From Candidatus Tectimicrobiota bacterium (GTDB lineage Bacteria; JACPSX01): a stretch of 6,763 bases of DNA. A model generated the notes under the pieces. It was not told the origin of the DNA and made no database searches. It saw nothing but the letters and a program-made list of their open reading frames with translations. This document shows, one piece after another, positions 77 to 6,763 of this stretch. Location of the stretch: positions 13,776-20,538 of the forward strand of contig JACPSX010000201.1 in the NCBI GenBank assembly GCA_016193065.1. The letters run 5' to 3'. Every line of letters starts with the position of its first letter. Position 1 is the first letter of the stretch. Position numbers and translations under genes: made by a program.

Positions 77-1321
77 CTATGCCTGCTGTGCCTGCGGGAC
101 ACCCTCCTCGACGGGCTTGTCGGGAATCATGTAAACGAGGAAGTTCGCGGTAAAGATCGTGGCGGCCAAAAAGTAAAAGGAGTATAGGATTCCAAAGCGA
201 TCCGCGATGAACCCGCAAATCGCAGGCGCAAAACCGGAAAACAGGGCTTGGATGCCAAATTGGGTGCTTACGGTGGTGCCGCTGATGTTCTTGGGAGCCA
301 GATCCATCATCCAGGCAAACATGACGGGGTGCAAGGAGAACAGGAAGAAGCCCAGGAAGGCCAGGACGCCGATGAAAAGGAAATTGAGTCTGAGGATGAC
401 CAGGGCGACCAGGAGGAGGCTGGTGGTAAGAAGTCCCGCAGTCAATACCGGGCGCCTCCCCTTCTTATCCGAAATGGTTCCCGCAATGGGAGAGGAGAAG
501 ATCCCCGCGGCCTGAACGACGGAGATGTAGCTTCCAACCAGGGCTGGAGAATACTTGAGCACATTGGCCAGGTAAATCGGCAGGAAAGTGAACAGTCCGG
601 ACTGAGTCATGGCCCGCATTCCGGACAAGCAGCAGAGAAGGAGGATGCTCTTGTTCTTGGCCAGCGTTTTCACCGCCTCCCAATATTCTTTCAAAGAGAG
701 TTCCTTCCCCTTCGCTTGATCTCGTACCGGGCCGCCTTTCGCGAGCAGCCTCCACAAGACGAACCCCATGAGGACTCCGGGAATGAGGTTGAGGATCAGC
801 ACGTGTCTCCAGATCACGAAGGTGAGGACGACACCGACGGCGAAGGGAGCCAACGTATTTCCCAGATTACCTCCCATGGAATGAAGGGCGATCGCGAACC
901 CTTTCCGCTCGGGGTAGCGATTCGCGAGGAGGGAGAGAGCGGCCGGATGCCATAGGTTGTTGCCGATCCCTACGAAGGTGATGACGAGCAAAGCGACCAC
1001 ATAGCTGGAGCTGAATCCGAGGAAAGAGTACGGGAGGCCTATGAGAGCTAGGGCCAGTCCCAGGAGAAAGCCGGTCTTTCCCACCATGTCCACAATGAGG
1101 CCGCCGGGCAGGTTGATGAAAAAGCTGGTGAAATGGTTCCATCCCATCAGCACCCCCACCTGGCTATAGGTGAGTCCCAGATCCTTGGCCAGATAGGGGA
1201 GGATGATGTATAAGGTGCTCGGGTACCAATGGGTGATCCCGTGCCCGAGACTTACCGCCACCAGTGTGGGATCGGTTTTCTTCAATCTGGCCCACGAAAA
1301 CCAGCCTTCTTTTTTCTCCAC
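77..1321 (-). CDS. MFS transporter, fosmidomycin-resistance (FSR)-like (414 aa)
   Basis: Inner-membrane carrier of the major facilitator superfamily, with about 12 hydrophobic segments between residues ~18 and 400. There is a hydrophilic central loop (about 191-224) between the two six-helix halves. Signature loop A appears twice: GGLIVDMVGK at 73-82 after TM2, and GTISDKKGRRP at 281-291 after TM8. WHPAALSLLANR (124-135) and SMGGNLG (148-154) are typical of the FSR/oxalate-like MFS branch. The start is GTG at 1319-1321, supported by AAGGGGG 5 bases upstream; the next in-frame Met is at residue 59, inside the second helix, and would remove TM1. It is co-oriented with the ligase gene but separated by a strong terminator, so it probably has its own promoter. 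FSR-like proteins export drugs or small acids, while others in the family import carboxylates. Direction and substrate cannot be decided here, and a link to the upstream pathway is only suggested by position. Confidence 0.93.
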   Translation of the reverse strand: MEKKEGWFSWARLKKTDPTLVAVSLGHGITHWYPSTLYIILPYLAKDLGLTYSQVGVLMGWNHFTSFFINLPGGLIVDMVGKTGFLLGLALALIGLPYSFLGFSSSYVVALLVITFVGIGNNLWHPAALSLLANRYPERKGFAIALHSMGGNLGNTLAPFAVGVVLTFVIWRHVLILNLIPGVLMGFVLWRLLAKGGPVRDQAKGKELSLKEYWEAVKTLAKNKSILLLCCLSGMRAMTQSGLFTFLPIYLANVLKYSPALVGSYISVVQAAGIFSSPIAGTISDKKGRRPVLTAGLLTTSLLLVALVILRLNFLFIGVLAFLGFFLFSLHPVMFAWMMDLAPKNISGTTVSTQFGIQALFSGFAPAICGFIADRFGILYSFYFLAATIFTANFLVYMIPDKPVEEGVPQAQQA

Positions 1322-1449: not shown

Positions 1450-2844
1450 CTAGGAGCAGTTCTCGTAAAGCTTTTCCAGAAGGGGGGCCTTGCGCAGACC
1501 CAGATCGGCGGCCCGGGGGAGAGATCCCGGCGACACCAGCTCCACCTCGGGGTGGAAGCGCAGCAGATCCGAGAGCTTTCGCTCCATTTCCTGCTTGAGG
1601 ATTTCCTGATCCGTGCGGCTCAGATTCTGGCCGTATTCCACCTTGAGTCGCAACGGAGGCGTTACCCGGGGTGGAGGTTCCAAGAGGACGATCCGCATCT
1701 CTCCCGTGACCCGAGGGACAAAACTGTTCACCACGTTCTTCACCGCGGCCGGGTAGACGTTGATTCCTTTCACGATGAGCATGTCGTCCACACGTCCCAG
1801 GATCCGGCGGCGCAGCCCCTTGACCCCGCAGGGGCAATCTTCCAGGAAGATCTGGTTGATGTCTCCCAGGGAGTAGCGCAGGGCCGGGCTTGCCTCCCAT
1901 TCCAGGGTTGTGAACACAAACTCCCCGATGGTCCCGTCCACAATGGGGAGGGGCTCTTTCGTTTGGGGGTCCACCAGATCATACATGATCACGTAGTCCT
2001 GGGAGACCACGTGCATTCCGAAGTAGGTGGAGGACCCGACGGAGGCCTCGCAAGAGATCGCGTAGAGTCCCCAGGGGCCTTGTCCCGAATCGTAGAGCTG
2101 AGCACCATAGGCCTCCTCGATCTTGCGCCGCACTTCAGGGAGGCCCGCGCCAGGCTCGCCAAAGCAGACAATCCGCTCCAGTCCCAGATCTCCCACGGGG
2201 GCCCCGATTGCTTTGGGAGCTTTCTCGATCAGGTACTCCGCATAGGAAGGGGTGCAGATCAGGGTTGTGGGCCGGGTGAGCCGGGCCATCTGCAGGAGAC
2301 GCTCACTTCCCCCTTCCGCTCCCACAGGGATGGGACGCGCACCCATGTGCTGCAGGGCCTGCACCACGGGGATCCCGCCGATCCACATGCTGAGGCCCAT
2401 GGCGTGCAGGACCGTTTCCCCCGGGCGGACCCCGGCGCGCCAGTACCCGCGGGCCATGACCTCGGCGGTTACCTGCAGGTCGTGTCTGGTAAATGCGTAG
2501 AAGGTGGGCCGACCCGTGGTTCCGGCGGTGGCATGGACGGCTATGACTTCATCCAAGGGTGCGCACAGGAAGAGTCCGAAGGGGTGCCCGTAGCGCTCCA
2601 GGGAATCCTCCTGGCTTCGCAGATCCTCTTCCTTGGTGACGAAGATGGGGAGTCGGCGAAAGTCTTCCAGGCTGCGAATGTCATTTGGTCTCACGCCGGC
2701 AGACTCAAACTTCTTCCGGTAAAACTCGGGGGAGTTCTCGTAGCAGTAGGCAAGCTGCTTCTTGAGCTTCTTCCAGTGCAGTTGTTGCAGTTTCTCCCCG
2801 GAGAGCAATTCCGCCGCTTCATTCCAGAACAATTTCTCGCTCAT
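1450..2844 (-). CDS. PaaK-like adenylate-forming CoA ligase (464 aa)
   Basis: Member of the phenylacetate-CoA ligase branch of the ANL superfamily. It would activate a carboxylic acid with ATP to the acyl-adenylate and then the CoA thioester, in the cytoplasm. In order: the PaaK N-terminal helix region with YCYENSPEFYRKKFESAGV (33-51); P-loop ATAGTTGRPT (105-114); FGEPGAG (228-234); A5 region YDSGQGPWGLYAISCEA (251-267); RYSLGDIN (323-330) with the ribose-binding Asp at D328; CPCG (337-340); hinge GRVDDMLIVKGINVYP (350-365), which is nearly canonical; C-terminal lid ending GSLPRAADLGLRKAP (440-454). Departures from textbook PaaK: Gln255 stands where A5 usually has Glu, and the lid lysine (probably K452) sits ~4 residues later than usual. 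Length is slightly above the usual 430-440. The ATG has a good ribosome binding site, and an intrinsic terminator follows the stop by 7 bases. It lies 96 bases after hyuB, so it probably acts on the carboxylate made by HyuAB. Substrate cannot be read from the sequence. Confidence 0.92.
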   Translation of the reverse strand: MSEKLFWNEAAELLSGEKLQQLHWKKLKKQLAYCYENSPEFYRKKFESAGVRPNDIRSLEDFRRLPIFVTKEEDLRSQEDSLERYGHPFGLFLCAPLDEVIAVHATAGTTGRPTFYAFTRHDLQVTAEVMARGYWRAGVRPGETVLHAMGLSMWIGGIPVVQALQHMGARPIPVGAEGGSERLLQMARLTRPTTLICTPSYAEYLIEKAPKAIGAPVGDLGLERIVCFGEPGAGLPEVRRKIEEAYGAQLYDSGQGPWGLYAISCEASVGSSTYFGMHVVSQDYVIMYDLVDPQTKEPLPIVDGTIGEFVFTTLEWEASPALRYSLGDINQIFLEDCPCGVKGLRRRILGRVDDMLIVKGINVYPAAVKNVVNSFVPRVTGEMRIVLLEPPPRVTPPLRLKVEYGQNLSRTDQEILKQEMERKLSDLLRFHPEVELVSPGSLPRAADLGLRKAPLLEKLYENCS

Positions 2845-2850
2845 GTGTTT

Positions 2851-2855
2851 TCCCT
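2851..2855 (-). promoter_or_regulatory. Ribosome binding site of the CoA ligase gene
   Basis: AGGGA on the minus strand sits 6 bases before the ATG at 2844-2842. It supports this start and shows that the ligase has its own initiation site rather than relying on coupling to hyuB, whose stop is 96 bases upstream. Confidence 0.7.
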
Positions 2856-2870
2856 AACAAATTTCCTCTC

Positions 2871-2913
2871 TGGCCCCCTCACCCTGACCCTCTCCCCCGT
2901 TGGGGTAGAAGGG
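2871..2913. repeat. C-rich imperfect palindrome between hyuB and the ligase gene
   Basis: The plus strand reads as C-rich blocks (CCCCCTCACCCTGACCC, then TCTCCCCC), a GTT turn, then GGGG and AGAAGGG. The inner part folds as 2888-2897 against 2902-2913 with two bulged bases. This CCCTCACCCTGACCCTCTCCC style is, to my knowledge, a dispersed intergenic palindrome seen in many proteobacterial and related genomes. It has no T-run on the minus strand, so it looks more like an mRNA hairpin or processing site within the operon than a full terminator. Confidence 0.6.
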
Positions 2914-2940
2914 AAAGCTTCGACCATCTCAGAATCGAAA

Positions 2941-4998
2941 TCAAGTATTGCCGGGCCGGGCGTCCGGCCAGCTTCCGTACAGGCGGAGGATTTCCTCCCG
3001 GGGCTTCTTGGCCGACCACTCCGGCTCGAACAGAGCATAGGGCTTGCCGCGCTTGATCCGGTCTGCGCGCTCGCGCCTGCGGCGCTCTTCTGTCTCAGTG
3101 TGATCCGCCCTGAGAGTTTGCGGATCGTAGACCACATGATAGACGTTTTGCGCGGTCCAGTGGGTGATGATCTGGTCCCGCAGGTCTTTCACGACGGCTT
3201 CGGGATCTCTCTCCAGGACATCCCCAAACCCTCCTCCACCCGTGTTGAGGCCCACGAAGATGTCGCCTTGCTGCAGGATGCGGTTGGCGCGGGCCACGGA
3301 TTCCAGTGTGTAGGTGCCGGAGACGGGACGCTCGCTCACCAGTTGAATCACGTCGCTGGGTACGCCGCCGTTGCCTTCTCTCAGCTTCTCGAATATGTCC
3401 GTCCCCGTGACCTGTACGCCGACCGGGGTGGCCGGCGAGTAGCCCCCGAAGATCCCCGAGTCGTGCGGGATCCGGCTGCCCTTTCCCAGGGAGTACATAC
3501 TTACCTGGGGAGCATGATAGACCACGTAGATCAGCTGGCTTCCCGAACCTCCCCGCCGCCGTCCGAAGCCGCAGCTGTTCTTGAAGTGCTTCTGGGCCAG
3601 AGTGAGGAAGGTGTATTCTTCTTCCATGTCCTCCGCGTCCCGGGCTTTTCCCCAAGGGGCCCAGAGGAAACCGTGGGAATCCATGCCGTCTTTGTCGGGC
3701 CGCGCTCCGCCCCCCTCCGTGTTTAAAAGATAAGTGATGAAATCCGCCACCGGCACTCCCCACTGGTTCACACCGCTGAATCCTGCGCCTCCCGAAGCAA
3801 TCCCCGGGCTGGCGGCACAAAGTTCCCGGTCGGGACTGGCAAAGAGCATCCGGGCAAAAACCGTGTGACACAGAGAGACCACCGTGCGGCCGATGATGGG
3901 GCTGTTCGCCACGGAGGCTTCCGGGCTCGCGTTTAGATAACACCCCTCGGGGACCGTGAAGGACAGAGGCCCGTAGGTTCCCGCCGAGGCGGGCAAATCG
4001 CACATGGGGTAGGTATGGAGATAATGCCCCACAAAGGCGGCCGTGGTATGCAGAAAGGCGTTGTAGGAGGAGGCGCTCTCGGGGGAAGTCCCCGTGAAGT
4101 CGAAGGTCAGCTCTTCCCCGTCGTTGGTCACGGTGAGGACGGTCCTCACCAGCCCTTCCTGGTGGCCGATCGTGTCAAAGAAGGCCACCGCCCGGTAGAC
4201 CCCCGGAATCCAGGAGCGGATCTTCTTGCGGGCGCCCTCCTCGGCGTGCTGGATGACGCGCCGGAAGAGCCCGCGGACAAAGGGCAGCCCGCGCTCCGCC
4301 GCCAGTTCCAGAAGGCGGCGGCGCATGCGGTCGGCCGCCGAGCACCGGGCCCGCACGTCGATCTCCTGCATGCGCGGGGCCCGGGAGATGAAGTTCACCA
4401 TCATGTCCATGAGATCCTGGCGCAACTGGAAGTTCTCAGCGATCTTGATCGGGGTGAGCTTCATCCCCTCGTAGTGGCGGTTGCGCGCTCCCACGGGCAT
4501 GCCGCCGGGCTCCGTCGCCCCGGTTTCAGGCTGGTGGGCCGCCGCGGAAGTCCAAGCGATCAGCTCACCGCCGGCAAAGACCGGCATGATCGCGATCTGG
4601 TCCGGGTTGTGCACGCCGCCCGCCAGGGCTTCGTTGCAGTAGAAAATGTCACCTTCTCTTACTCCCACGGTGGGAGCGTCCTTCAGATAGGTGAGGATGT
4701 ACTTGACCGGAAGCTGGGCGACCTGGGCGTGGAGGAAGGTGCCGCAGCTCGCCGACACCAGATCCCCCGCCGCCGTGTAAATTCCCACCACGAGGTCTCC
4801 GGAGCGCAGAAAGCTCGACACCCCGGTGCGGATGAAGACCTCGCGGGCCTCGTCGAGGATCGAGTTGATCTTGCCGTTGTAGATCTCGTATTCACCAGGC
4901 CCCAGCCGGGCCGCCTCTTCCAGCTCCGTTGCCGTGGGGGACTCGGGCTTGAGCCAGCCGCGGATCTTTTCCTTGATCTCCCGGTAATTGATGCTCAT
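2941..4998 (-). CDS. hyuB: HyuB / acetone carboxylase alpha-type catalytic subunit (685 aa)
   Basis: Metal-dependent catalytic subunit that partners HyuA in ATP-driven attack on a carbonyl or amide compound. The N-terminus (residues 38-90) matches the family start, with the substrate-site region VGIYTAAGDLVS at 71-82. The likely metal site is intact: H130-x2-D133 in GGVHNPDQ, then H155 in SAAAHQPETG. This HxxD plus His pattern is the one I recall binding metal in acetone carboxylase. Other family marks are TFDFTGTSPE at 298-307, SYNAF at 311-315, and the glycine-rich TGGGGFGD at 586-593. A charged tail of about 65 residues (about 620-685, with GKPYALFEPEW) resembles the extension of carboxylase alpha subunits. 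At 685 aa it lies between plain HyuB (~520-600) and acetone carboxylase alpha (~770). ATG at 4996-4998 follows the hyuA TGA by 3 bases. The nearest ribosome-binding match (GAAGG) is ~14 bases away, so translational coupling is likely. N-methylhydantoinase or caprolactamase-type activity remains possible. Confidence 0.93.
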   Translation of the reverse strand: MSINYREIKEKIRGWLKPESPTATELEEAARLGPGEYEIYNGKINSILDEAREVFIRTGVSSFLRSGDLVVGIYTAAGDLVSASCGTFLHAQVAQLPVKYILTYLKDAPTVGVREGDIFYCNEALAGGVHNPDQIAIMPVFAGGELIAWTSAAAHQPETGATEPGGMPVGARNRHYEGMKLTPIKIAENFQLRQDLMDMMVNFISRAPRMQEIDVRARCSAADRMRRRLLELAAERGLPFVRGLFRRVIQHAEEGARKKIRSWIPGVYRAVAFFDTIGHQEGLVRTVLTVTNDGEELTFDFTGTSPESASSYNAFLHTTAAFVGHYLHTYPMCDLPASAGTYGPLSFTVPEGCYLNASPEASVANSPIIGRTVVSLCHTVFARMLFASPDRELCAASPGIASGGAGFSGVNQWGVPVADFITYLLNTEGGGARPDKDGMDSHGFLWAPWGKARDAEDMEEEYTFLTLAQKHFKNSCGFGRRRGGSGSQLIYVVYHAPQVSMYSLGKGSRIPHDSGIFGGYSPATPVGVQVTGTDIFEKLREGNGGVPSDVIQLVSERPVSGTYTLESVARANRILQQGDIFVGLNTGGGGFGDVLERDPEAVVKDLRDQIITHWTAQNVYHVVYDPQTLRADHTETEERRRRERADRIKRGKPYALFEPEWSAKKPREEILRLYGSWPDARPGNT

Positions 4999-5001
4999 CG
5001 C

Positions 5002-6763
5002 TCAGCTCTCGACCTTCTCGATGACGCCGTTTCCATACTCATCCTTGCGGTAGCGCCACCCCGGGGCCAGGACCAGAGTGGTGTGGTCCGATTCGATGAT
5101 GGCGGCTCCTTCCAGGCGGTGCCCGCAGGAGAGCCGCTCCTCTGCATAAACCGGGGTGGATGTGACCCCTCCCGTCTCCTCCCAGAGGGCCTGTCGCTCT
5201 CCTACCAGGGCGATGCCCGGGTCTGTTGCGACCGGCTCGCAGCGGGCCGGAACGGGTCGTGGGTTGGGAACGAAAGCCTTGAGGATGAAGTTCTCCACGT
5301 CCACGCCGCTCTCCGGGAAAACGGACAGAGGGCTGTACGCTTCACTGTACTCGATCTCAAAGGCCCGGCAGAGTGCCTTCACGTCTTGCTCGCTGTGCAA
5401 GAACAGGGAGGGTGCGGCCGTGCGCTTGATGTCGAGCTGCCCGCCGTAGCGCATGTCGATCTCCAGGCTGTAGACGATCTCATCCTCTGCAAACCCTTCT
5501 CCGCTAAGATCCCGCCGGGCCTTTTTCTGCAAGGTTTCCACCGCCTGGTTAAAGGACTCGTAGTCTTCCAGGTAGTGCTGGCTTTTGGGATTGATCAGCA
5601 GCAAGCGCCGGGAGAGCTCGTAGATGTGCAAGGTATCGAGGGTCGAGGAACCGTAGGCGCAAAAGACCGGAGAATGGGGGAAAACGAGAATCCGCTCCAC
5701 GCCGGCAAATGAACCGAAGCCGCAGCAGTGAGTGGGACCGGCGCCGCCGTACGCAAAGAGGACGAACTCTTTTGGGTTGTAACCGCGCAGGGCCGTCTCC
5801 TTGTAAATGATCTGCCCCATCTTGGCGTCGACGATCTTCTTGATCAGAAGGGCGGCTTCTTCTACGGAGAGCTGGAGGGGGCGGGCGATTTTCTCTTCCA
5901 CGGTCCGCCGGGCTCTGGGAAGACTCAGGCGCTTTTTTCCGCCATGAAAGCGGTCCGGGTTCAAGTAGCCCAGGATCACATCGGCATCGGTCACCGTGGG
6001 CTCGCCGCCGCCCTGGTTGTAAGCGGCGGGCCCGGGCATGGCTCCGGCGCTGCGCGGACCGACTTCCAGCCGGTTTCCCAGCAGTGTATTGATCCAGGCG
6101 ATGGAGCCTCCTCCCGCTCCGATCGAGCGGGTCCACAGCATCGTGGAGCCCACCATCCACTTGTCGATCACCGGCTGGTAGTCGTAGAGGCGGGTGCTCC
6201 CCTGTACCACCAGAGAGAAATCAAAGCTCGTCCCTCCCATGTCGGCCGTGATGATGTTGGGCAAGCCGTAGATCTTCCCCCAGTGGGCGCTCCCCATGAG
6301 ACCGGCCACGGGGCCGCCGTTAAATGTTTCGATGGCGCTGGTGCGGAAGGACTCGGCCATGCCGCCCGTGTTGTGCACCAGGAACAGGGGGCGGCGATAG
6401 CCGCGCTGGCGCAGTTCATCGCTGATGGTGCCGATTTCCTCCGCGATGGCCTGGTGCAGGTAGGCGTTCAGGATCGTCGTCATGGCCCTCTGATACTCCA
6501 GGTGCTTGGGGAGGACCTGATGGGAGAGGAGCATCGGGATGGAGCCCAGGGTGGAGTCGGGGTATTCCTCCCGGAAGATCTCCTGGATGCGGAGTTCATG
6601 GGCCGGGTTCAGGAAAGACCAGAGAAGGCAGACGACGAAGCCCCGTGCTCCTTGATCCACCAGAGCGTGGATCTTCTCGCGCACGTCCTCCTCGTTCAGG
6701 GGGCGCACGATTTGTCCCTTGGAATTGACCCGCTCCCGGATGCCCACGGTCATTTCCCGGGGA
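5002..6763 (-). CDS. hyuA: HyuA / acetone carboxylase beta-type subunit, 5' end cut by window edge
   Basis: ATP-using subunit of a hydantoinase/oxoprolinase/ketone carboxylase, expected to be cytoplasmic. The first Met codon (6751-6753) is probably internal: the frame stays open upstream (Pro-Arg-Glu precede it), and the following GIRERVNSKG matches an interior stretch of the family. The N-terminal ~120-130 residues, with the usual DxGGTFTD phosphate-binding motif, therefore lie beyond the window. Counting from that Met: CLLWSFLNPAHE at 42-53, LVHNTGGMA at 125-133, NGGPVAG at 145-151, the second phosphate-binding motif ADMGGTSFDFS at 170-180, SIGAGGGSIA at 210-219, VGPRSAGAMPGPAAY at 231-245, TVTDADVILGYL at 253-264, FAYGGAGPTHC at 333-343, and the C-terminal AAIIESDHTTLVLAPGW at 550-566. 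The HNTGG stretch, as I recall it, favours the acetone/acetophenone carboxylase branch over 5-oxoprolinase. It is almost fused to hyuB downstream (3-base gap), so the two products very likely form one complex. Family is certain; substrate is unknown. Confidence 0.93.
   Translation of the reverse strand, partial: PREMTVGIRERVNSKGQIVRPLNEEDVREKIHALVDQGARGFVVCLLWSFLNPAHELRIQEIFREEYPDSTLGSIPMLLSHQVLPKHLEYQRAMTTILNAYLHQAIAEEIGTISDELRQRGYRRPLFLVHNTGGMAESFRTSAIETFNGGPVAGLMGSAHWGKIYGLPNIITADMGGTSFDFSLVVQGSTRLYDYQPVIDKWMVGSTMLWTRSIGAGGGSIAWINTLLGNRLEVGPRSAGAMPGPAAYNQGGGEPTVTDADVILGYLNPDRFHGGKKRLSLPRARRTVEEKIARPLQLSVEEAALLIKKIVDAKMGQIIYKETALRGYNPKEFVLFAYGGAGPTHCCGFGSFAGVERILVFPHSPVFCAYGSSTLDTLHIYELSRRLLLINPKSQHYLEDYESFNQAVETLQKKARRDLSGEGFAEDEIVYSLEIDMRYGGQLDIKRTAAPSLFLHSEQDVKALCRAFEIEYSEAYSPLSVFPESGVDVENFILKAFVPNPRPVPARCEPVATDPGIALVGERQALWEETGGVTSTPVYAEERLSCGHRLEGAAIIESDHTTLVLAPGWRYRKDEYGNGVIEKVES

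Follow-up and report, generated by a model that had tools for sequence, protein, structure and literature searches.

ApcC/ApcD-type genes and a PaaK-like CoA ligase gene in Candidatus Tectimicrobiota: a probable locus for ketone carboxylation and CoA activation

Genes and features of the locus

The window, by which we mean the whole 6,763-bp stretch of DNA that was analysed, has the following features.

5002-6763, minus strand: hyuA, open reading frame of 586 aa with an open 5' end
2941-4998, minus strand: hyuB, complete open reading frame of 685 aa
2845-2940, minus strand: hyuB-ligase gap of 96 bp with a short GC-rich dispersed element (from the sequence)
1450-2844, minus strand: PaaK-like acyl-CoA ligase gene, open reading frame of 464 aa
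1412-1442, minus strand: intrinsic-terminator-like hairpin and U-run past the ligase stop (from the sequence and RNA fold)
77-1321, minus strand: MFS transporter gene (Pfam MFS_1, 1e-61)

The layout is operon-like. The hyuA stop and the hyuB start are 3 bp apart, as the initial annotation had it, and the ligase gene that it placed downstream does start 96 bp past the hyuB stop on the same strand. The terminator that it had proposed is also real: a 10-bp hairpin, AAGGCTTTTC-agttgac-GGAAAGCCTT (1442-1416; fold z = -2.3), lies 7 bp past the ligase stop and is followed by TTTT. The hairpin at 1412-1442 was absent from the list returned by a consensus terminator scan. Because it stands directly past the ligase stop, the MFS gene beyond it is probably a separate or read-through unit, and the membership of this gene in the carboxylase-ligase system is uncertain. 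Comparison of its product with PHROGs gave no function.

The window ends where contig C84 (20,538 bp) ends, and thus the N-terminal ~126 residues of HyuA are missing, along with everything upstream of hyuA. The source genome (2.9 Mb, 294 contigs) is 86% complete. Short GC-rich dispersed elements of the kind found in the hyuB-ligase gap are common to several of its contigs (window 2845-2940; L061 1-225 and 2437-2459; L138; L141 814-993), and they also lie beside a second copy of apcC on contig C98.

Class of the HyuA and HyuB proteins

HyuA matches Pfam Hydantoinase_A (1e-67) together with Hydant_A_N/C, and HyuB matches Hydantoinase_B (1.6e-93). Against the NCBIfam models, HyuA scores 682 bits for ApcC, a value obtained from a fragment of 586 of about 712 aa, 405 for CapA and 291 for ApcA; HyuB scores 636 for ApcD and 154 for CapB. 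The best PDB matches are 5l9w_B for HyuA (1e-192) and 5l9w_A for HyuB (5e-175), both chains of the Aromatoleum acetophenone carboxylase, and these rank far above acetone carboxylase, N-methylhydantoinase and caprolactamase. In a maximum likelihood tree of 61 HyuA-like proteins, HyuA lies within the ApcC clade that includes 5l9w ApcC (13 rows at 100/95, 16 rows at 100/99), apart from CapA, N-methylhydantoinase and AcxA. Its nearest row is the second copy in its own genome (C98), followed by Bacilli and Dehalococcoidia. HyuB falls in an ApcD clade of 18 rows with a support of 100, obtained by a quick tree method without bootstrap. Aromatoleum ApcA and IaaCE were placed by NCBIfam scores and the literature (PMC5214803) rather than as full tree rows.

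HyuA retains the ATP motifs DMGGTSFD and GAMPGP, and the alpha-subunit interface fingerprint R/KERiDsxG (PMC5214803) is present as RERVNSKG. The PHOSPHATE 1 motif falls in the missing N-terminus of HyuA and is visible only on a homologous fragment at the end of contig C202. HyuB, with 685 aa, is as long as Apc-beta (684), compared with about 580 for hydantoinases and 776 for acetone carboxylase; this length and the three motifs all fit the Apc criteria of PMC5214803. The Asp-His-Asp-His metal tetrad of HyuB (D68/H130/D133/H155) is also kept, but since it is common to all branches of the superfamily (PMC8453981), it does not discriminate among them. Judged by sequence, hyuA is the gene of an ApcC-type alpha subunit (ASKHA ATP-binding subunit) with its 5' end cut, and hyuB that of an ApcD-type beta subunit.

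The initial annotation had proposed a ketone-carboxylase-like enzyme, and this is supported by the Apc branch in both trees and by the ApcC and ApcD scores. It had also allowed for the opening of a lactam or hydantoin, which we set aside, as both trees exclude CapAB and N-methylhydantoinase and the Apc models score higher; neither tree groups the proteins inside hydantoinases or oxoprolinases, the outcome that the annotation itself had named as refuting. Membership among hydantoinases, 5-oxoprolinases or caprolactamases is rejected on the basis of the trees, the scores and a beta subunit that is not about 580 aa. Caprolactamase CapAB and the ATP-dependent hydantoinases share with the window proteins two homologous subunits and conserved ATP and metal sites, but they form a separate clade with a beta subunit ~100 aa shorter. 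Acetone carboxylase AcxABC, rejected because HyuA and HyuB do not group with AcxA and AcxB, belongs to the same superfamily, and its product is likewise a beta-keto acid needing CoA activation. However, it forms a separate clade, its beta subunit is longer, and a gamma gene lies downstream of acxB, whereas open reading frames and Pfam gave no gamma gene between hyuB and the ligase gene or elsewhere in the window. The biotin-dependent HpeCBA/XccBCA route for hydroxyacetophenones (PMC9618137) involves a different protein family. The genome is unusually rich in the superfamily: genes of the HyuA type number at least 11, and there are several of the HyuB type; acetone-carboxylase-gamma-like genes adjoin three of the other HyuB genes (on C41, C54 and C262).

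The NCBIfam equivalog cut-offs for acetophenone carboxylase are 1500 bits, far above the scores of HyuA and HyuB. We therefore class the locus as Apc-type and not as acetophenone carboxylase, and the substrate need not be acetophenone. Furthermore, Gln344 of the ApcC pocket is Trp in HyuA and in no other sampled relative, and this replacement in the proposed ketone pocket suggests a different substrate.

The subunit set and related apc loci

Genome contigs and plasmids were scanned for ApcC/ApcD-type loci, and these turned up in Bacilli, Actinomycetes, Alpha- and Gammaproteobacteria, Dehalococcoidia and haloarchaea. Of the related loci, 15 have enough flanking sequence to be judged, and every one of them holds a complete apcABCD set, with apcA and apcB directly upstream of apcC. 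The initial annotation described a two-subunit enzyme. Two genes are indeed visible, but the description is doubtful because these relatives are arranged apcA-apcB-apcC-apcD(-apcE) and the contig stops inside apcC; the two-subunit look is probably just the place where the assembled contig ends. Contig C244 of the same genome carries an ApcA gene and then, at the contig edge, the first codons of apcB (DKVRITEYLDIDLDKELWCCNRCG), and in the 61-protein tree the place of this ApcA in the ApcA clade matches that of HyuA in the ApcC clade. An ApcE-like gene, which scores 38 bits with the NCBIfam ApcE model and is not linked to the window, lies at the edge of C172. The most economical interpretation is that a complete Apc set was split up in the assembly.

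A rival arrangement, compatible with the ketone-carboxylase chemistry, is a split system in which apcC, apcD and the ligase gene stand on their own under a separate promoter, while apcA-apcB (C244) and apcE (C172) either work in trans or have no connection with them. We consider this a serious possibility, though we lean against it. A matching 5' part of apcC is present on one contig alone, C202, where the upstream neighbour, 91 bp away, is a divergent M24 peptidase gene and not apcB. Among C202, C244 and C98, only C202 has k-mers in common with the end of the window. The overlap (C202 13588-14007, in L058, with window 6343-6762) covers 420 bp at 90% nucleotide and 96% amino acid level, its changes are mostly silent, and both contigs end there. 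With this 10% difference, C202 and C84 may be different copies or strains, so the C202 fragment may be a strain variant of the same locus, or a second copy or recent duplicate. The C98 copy (L061 226-3856) has an intact ApcC, 61% to the window's HyuA, and no apcB in the 200 bp upstream of apcC, which would also fit a split system; its ApcD, however, is decayed, with residues 1-226 absent and a frameshift. The apcAB genes found upstream in every one of the 15 relatives also argue against a split. It is unlikely that the alpha-beta pair is an Apc-type carboxylase working without alpha' and gamma in its operon, alongside a PaaK-like beta-keto-acid CoA ligase that was recruited independently. If true, a split or two-subunit Apc would be a stripped-down intermediate between the hydantoinases and the five-subunit carboxylase.

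Among the 386 genomes of a cross-phylum sample, close HyuB proteins occur only in the window's genome and one Tectomicrobia genome; the genomes sampled in this search for closer relatives are related to the window's genome at the same-domain level only. A Ca. Tectomicrobia genome (G047) has two ApcD-like genes, L059:8501-10519 (51%) and L060:8750-10750 (49%). They are orphan beta subunits: neither next to them nor anywhere else in the genome is there an ApcC-like partner (the best HyuA reaches 38%).

A URO-D-like gene matching the NCBIfam ApcE model is present in many of the related apc clusters. The following genes have the URO-D/MtaA fold.

L068:12053-12994: ApcE-like gene, ApcE model match
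L069:12064-13038: ApcE-like gene, ApcE model match
L076:6395-7354: ApcE-like gene, ApcE model match
L082:12039-12920: ApcE-like gene, ApcE model match
L141:7228-8208, minus strand: ApcE-like gene, ApcE model match

Their hosts are Bacilli, haloarchaea and a member of the Rhodospirillales, and the genes show no invariant His-x-Cys...Cys motif. For a Bacillus ApcE-like protein, the predicted structure (pLDDT 77) gave matches to a Methanosarcina methyltransferase, to URO-D and to the solved ApcE (9fou). ApcE-like subunits thus look more widespread than stated in PMC5214803.

The PaaK-like ligase and the proposed function

The ligase has the Pfam domains AMP-binding and AMP-binding_C_2, and its best PDB relatives are 6hdw, 4r1l and 2y4o. 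It shares the fold family and the C-terminal AMP-binding_C_2 domain with PaaK and 2-hydroxyisobutyryl-CoA ligase (HCL), but it belongs to a clade of its own outside both, without a characterised member among the sampled rows. Identity as the PaaK phenylacetate-CoA ligase is rejected by this separate clade and by scores of 215 and 246 bits with the PaaK models, against cut-offs of 646 and 700; identity as HCL is rejected by the tree. The clade also includes apc-linked ligases of Bacilli and haloarchaea.

A CoA ligase stands beside the apc genes in 9 of the 15 relatives, PaaK-like in six and another AMP-forming ligase in three. The clusters with a PaaK-like ligase are those of Bacillus timonensis, Fredinandcohnia, Paenibacillus validus and haloarchaea (L067, L068, L071, L076, L077, L085). 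They resemble the window in pairing ApcC/ApcD-type genes with such a ligase, and differ in having a complete apcA-apcB-apcC-apcD set with an ApcE/URO-D gene and in the place and origin of the ligase gene, which lies upstream, downstream or in convergent orientation and derives from different branches of the ligase clade. A single origin of the apc-linked PaaK-like ligases is rejected, since constraining them to one clade gave an AU p of 4e-37 (quick tree). Thus, by sequence comparison, PaaK-like ligases joined apc genes more than once. The hyuA-hyuB-paaK neighbourhood that the initial annotation proposed to look for in other genomes does recur, in Bacilli and haloarchaea, although not from one ancestral ligase. 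Ahead of the Paenibacillus apc-ligase cluster stands a gene for a PucR-type regulator (L071:1845-3782). Its product has the XylR_N "activator of aromatic catabolism" domain, which suggests an aromatic inducer for that cluster.

Could the ligase and the carboxylase be mere neighbours with no shared pathway? PaaK-like ligases occur widely (in 70 of 290 genomes), the apc-linked ones are not one clade, and the nearest relatives of the window ligase adjoin genes for acyl-CoA dehydrogenase, thiolase and related functions in fatty-acid-like clusters, a description that rests on annotation for the Variovorax locus and on open reading frame starts for the others. The shared strand, the 96-bp gap, the common terminator and the CoA ligases of the nine relatives speak against chance proximity, which we regard as improbable.

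The best explanation, and in our judgement a probable one, is that the locus holds the ApcC/ApcD-type genes of a ketone carboxylase and a CoA ligase for its product. The most likely function would be ATP-dependent carboxylation of a ketone to a beta-keto acid, which the ligase then probably activates with CoA. This is the logic of the apc-bal route of Aromatoleum (PMC4729919), and since there is a single characterised Apc enzyme (PMC5214803), the functional assignment is carried over from one rather distant protein. As in ApcABCDE and benzoylacetate-CoA ligase of Aromatoleum aromaticum EbN1, the CoA ligase is in the same operon as the carboxylase, HyuA and HyuB lie in the ApcC and ApcD clades, HyuA retains the ATP motifs and the interface fingerprint, and HyuB retains the metal tetrad. 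By contrast, the window scores lie far under the equivalog cut-offs, Gln344 is replaced by Trp, apcA, apcB and apcE are not on the window contig, and the ligase is of the PaaK-like clade. The initial annotation spoke of an undescribed route. The sequence of carboxylation and CoA activation is already known. The locus is a new example of an established type of degradation operon, in which only the ligase family and the substrate would be new.

In the proposed mechanism, ATP would phosphorylate the enol form of the ketone on the alpha subunit (ApcC), and a second ATP would activate bicarbonate on ApcA, the alpha' subunit, for which C244 carries a gene. The beta subunit (ApcD) would join the two activated parts by a C-C bond, giving a beta-keto acid. 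The PaaK-like ligase would adenylate this acid and convert it to the beta-ketoacyl-CoA, which thiolysis could then split into acetyl-CoA and a shortened acyl-CoA. We infer all of this chemistry, as well as the ketone as substrate and the service of the alpha', gamma and epsilon genes to the HyuA-HyuB pair, by analogy.

The main alternative to the proposed chemistry, and a very improbable one, would be an ATP-dependent two-subunit lactamase or hydantoinase (cf. caprolactamase and 2-oxoindoleacetyl-CoA lactamase) with the ligase acting first: two subunits are visible, the gene-order criterion of PMC5214803 gives hydAB for the hydantoinase type, and the CoA ligase IaaB activates indoleacetate in a lactamase-using pathway (PMC8360864; PMC5214803), but this logic needs a hydantoinase-branch HyuAB, and in both trees CapAB and N-methylhydantoinase group apart from the window proteins; HyuB also exceeds the hydantoinase beta subunit by 100 aa, and CapA and CapB score 405 and 154 bits against 682 for ApcC and 636 for ApcD.

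The probable ketone carboxylase locus places an Apc core in a lineage with no same-phylum relative sampled, and PaaK-like ligases appear to have been combined with apc genes on more than one occasion and in two domains of life. Together, these observations suggest that ketone carboxylation with CoA activation occurs more widely, and on a broader range of substrates, than the single Aromatoleum case would indicate, and that hydantoinase annotations can hide ketone carboxylases.
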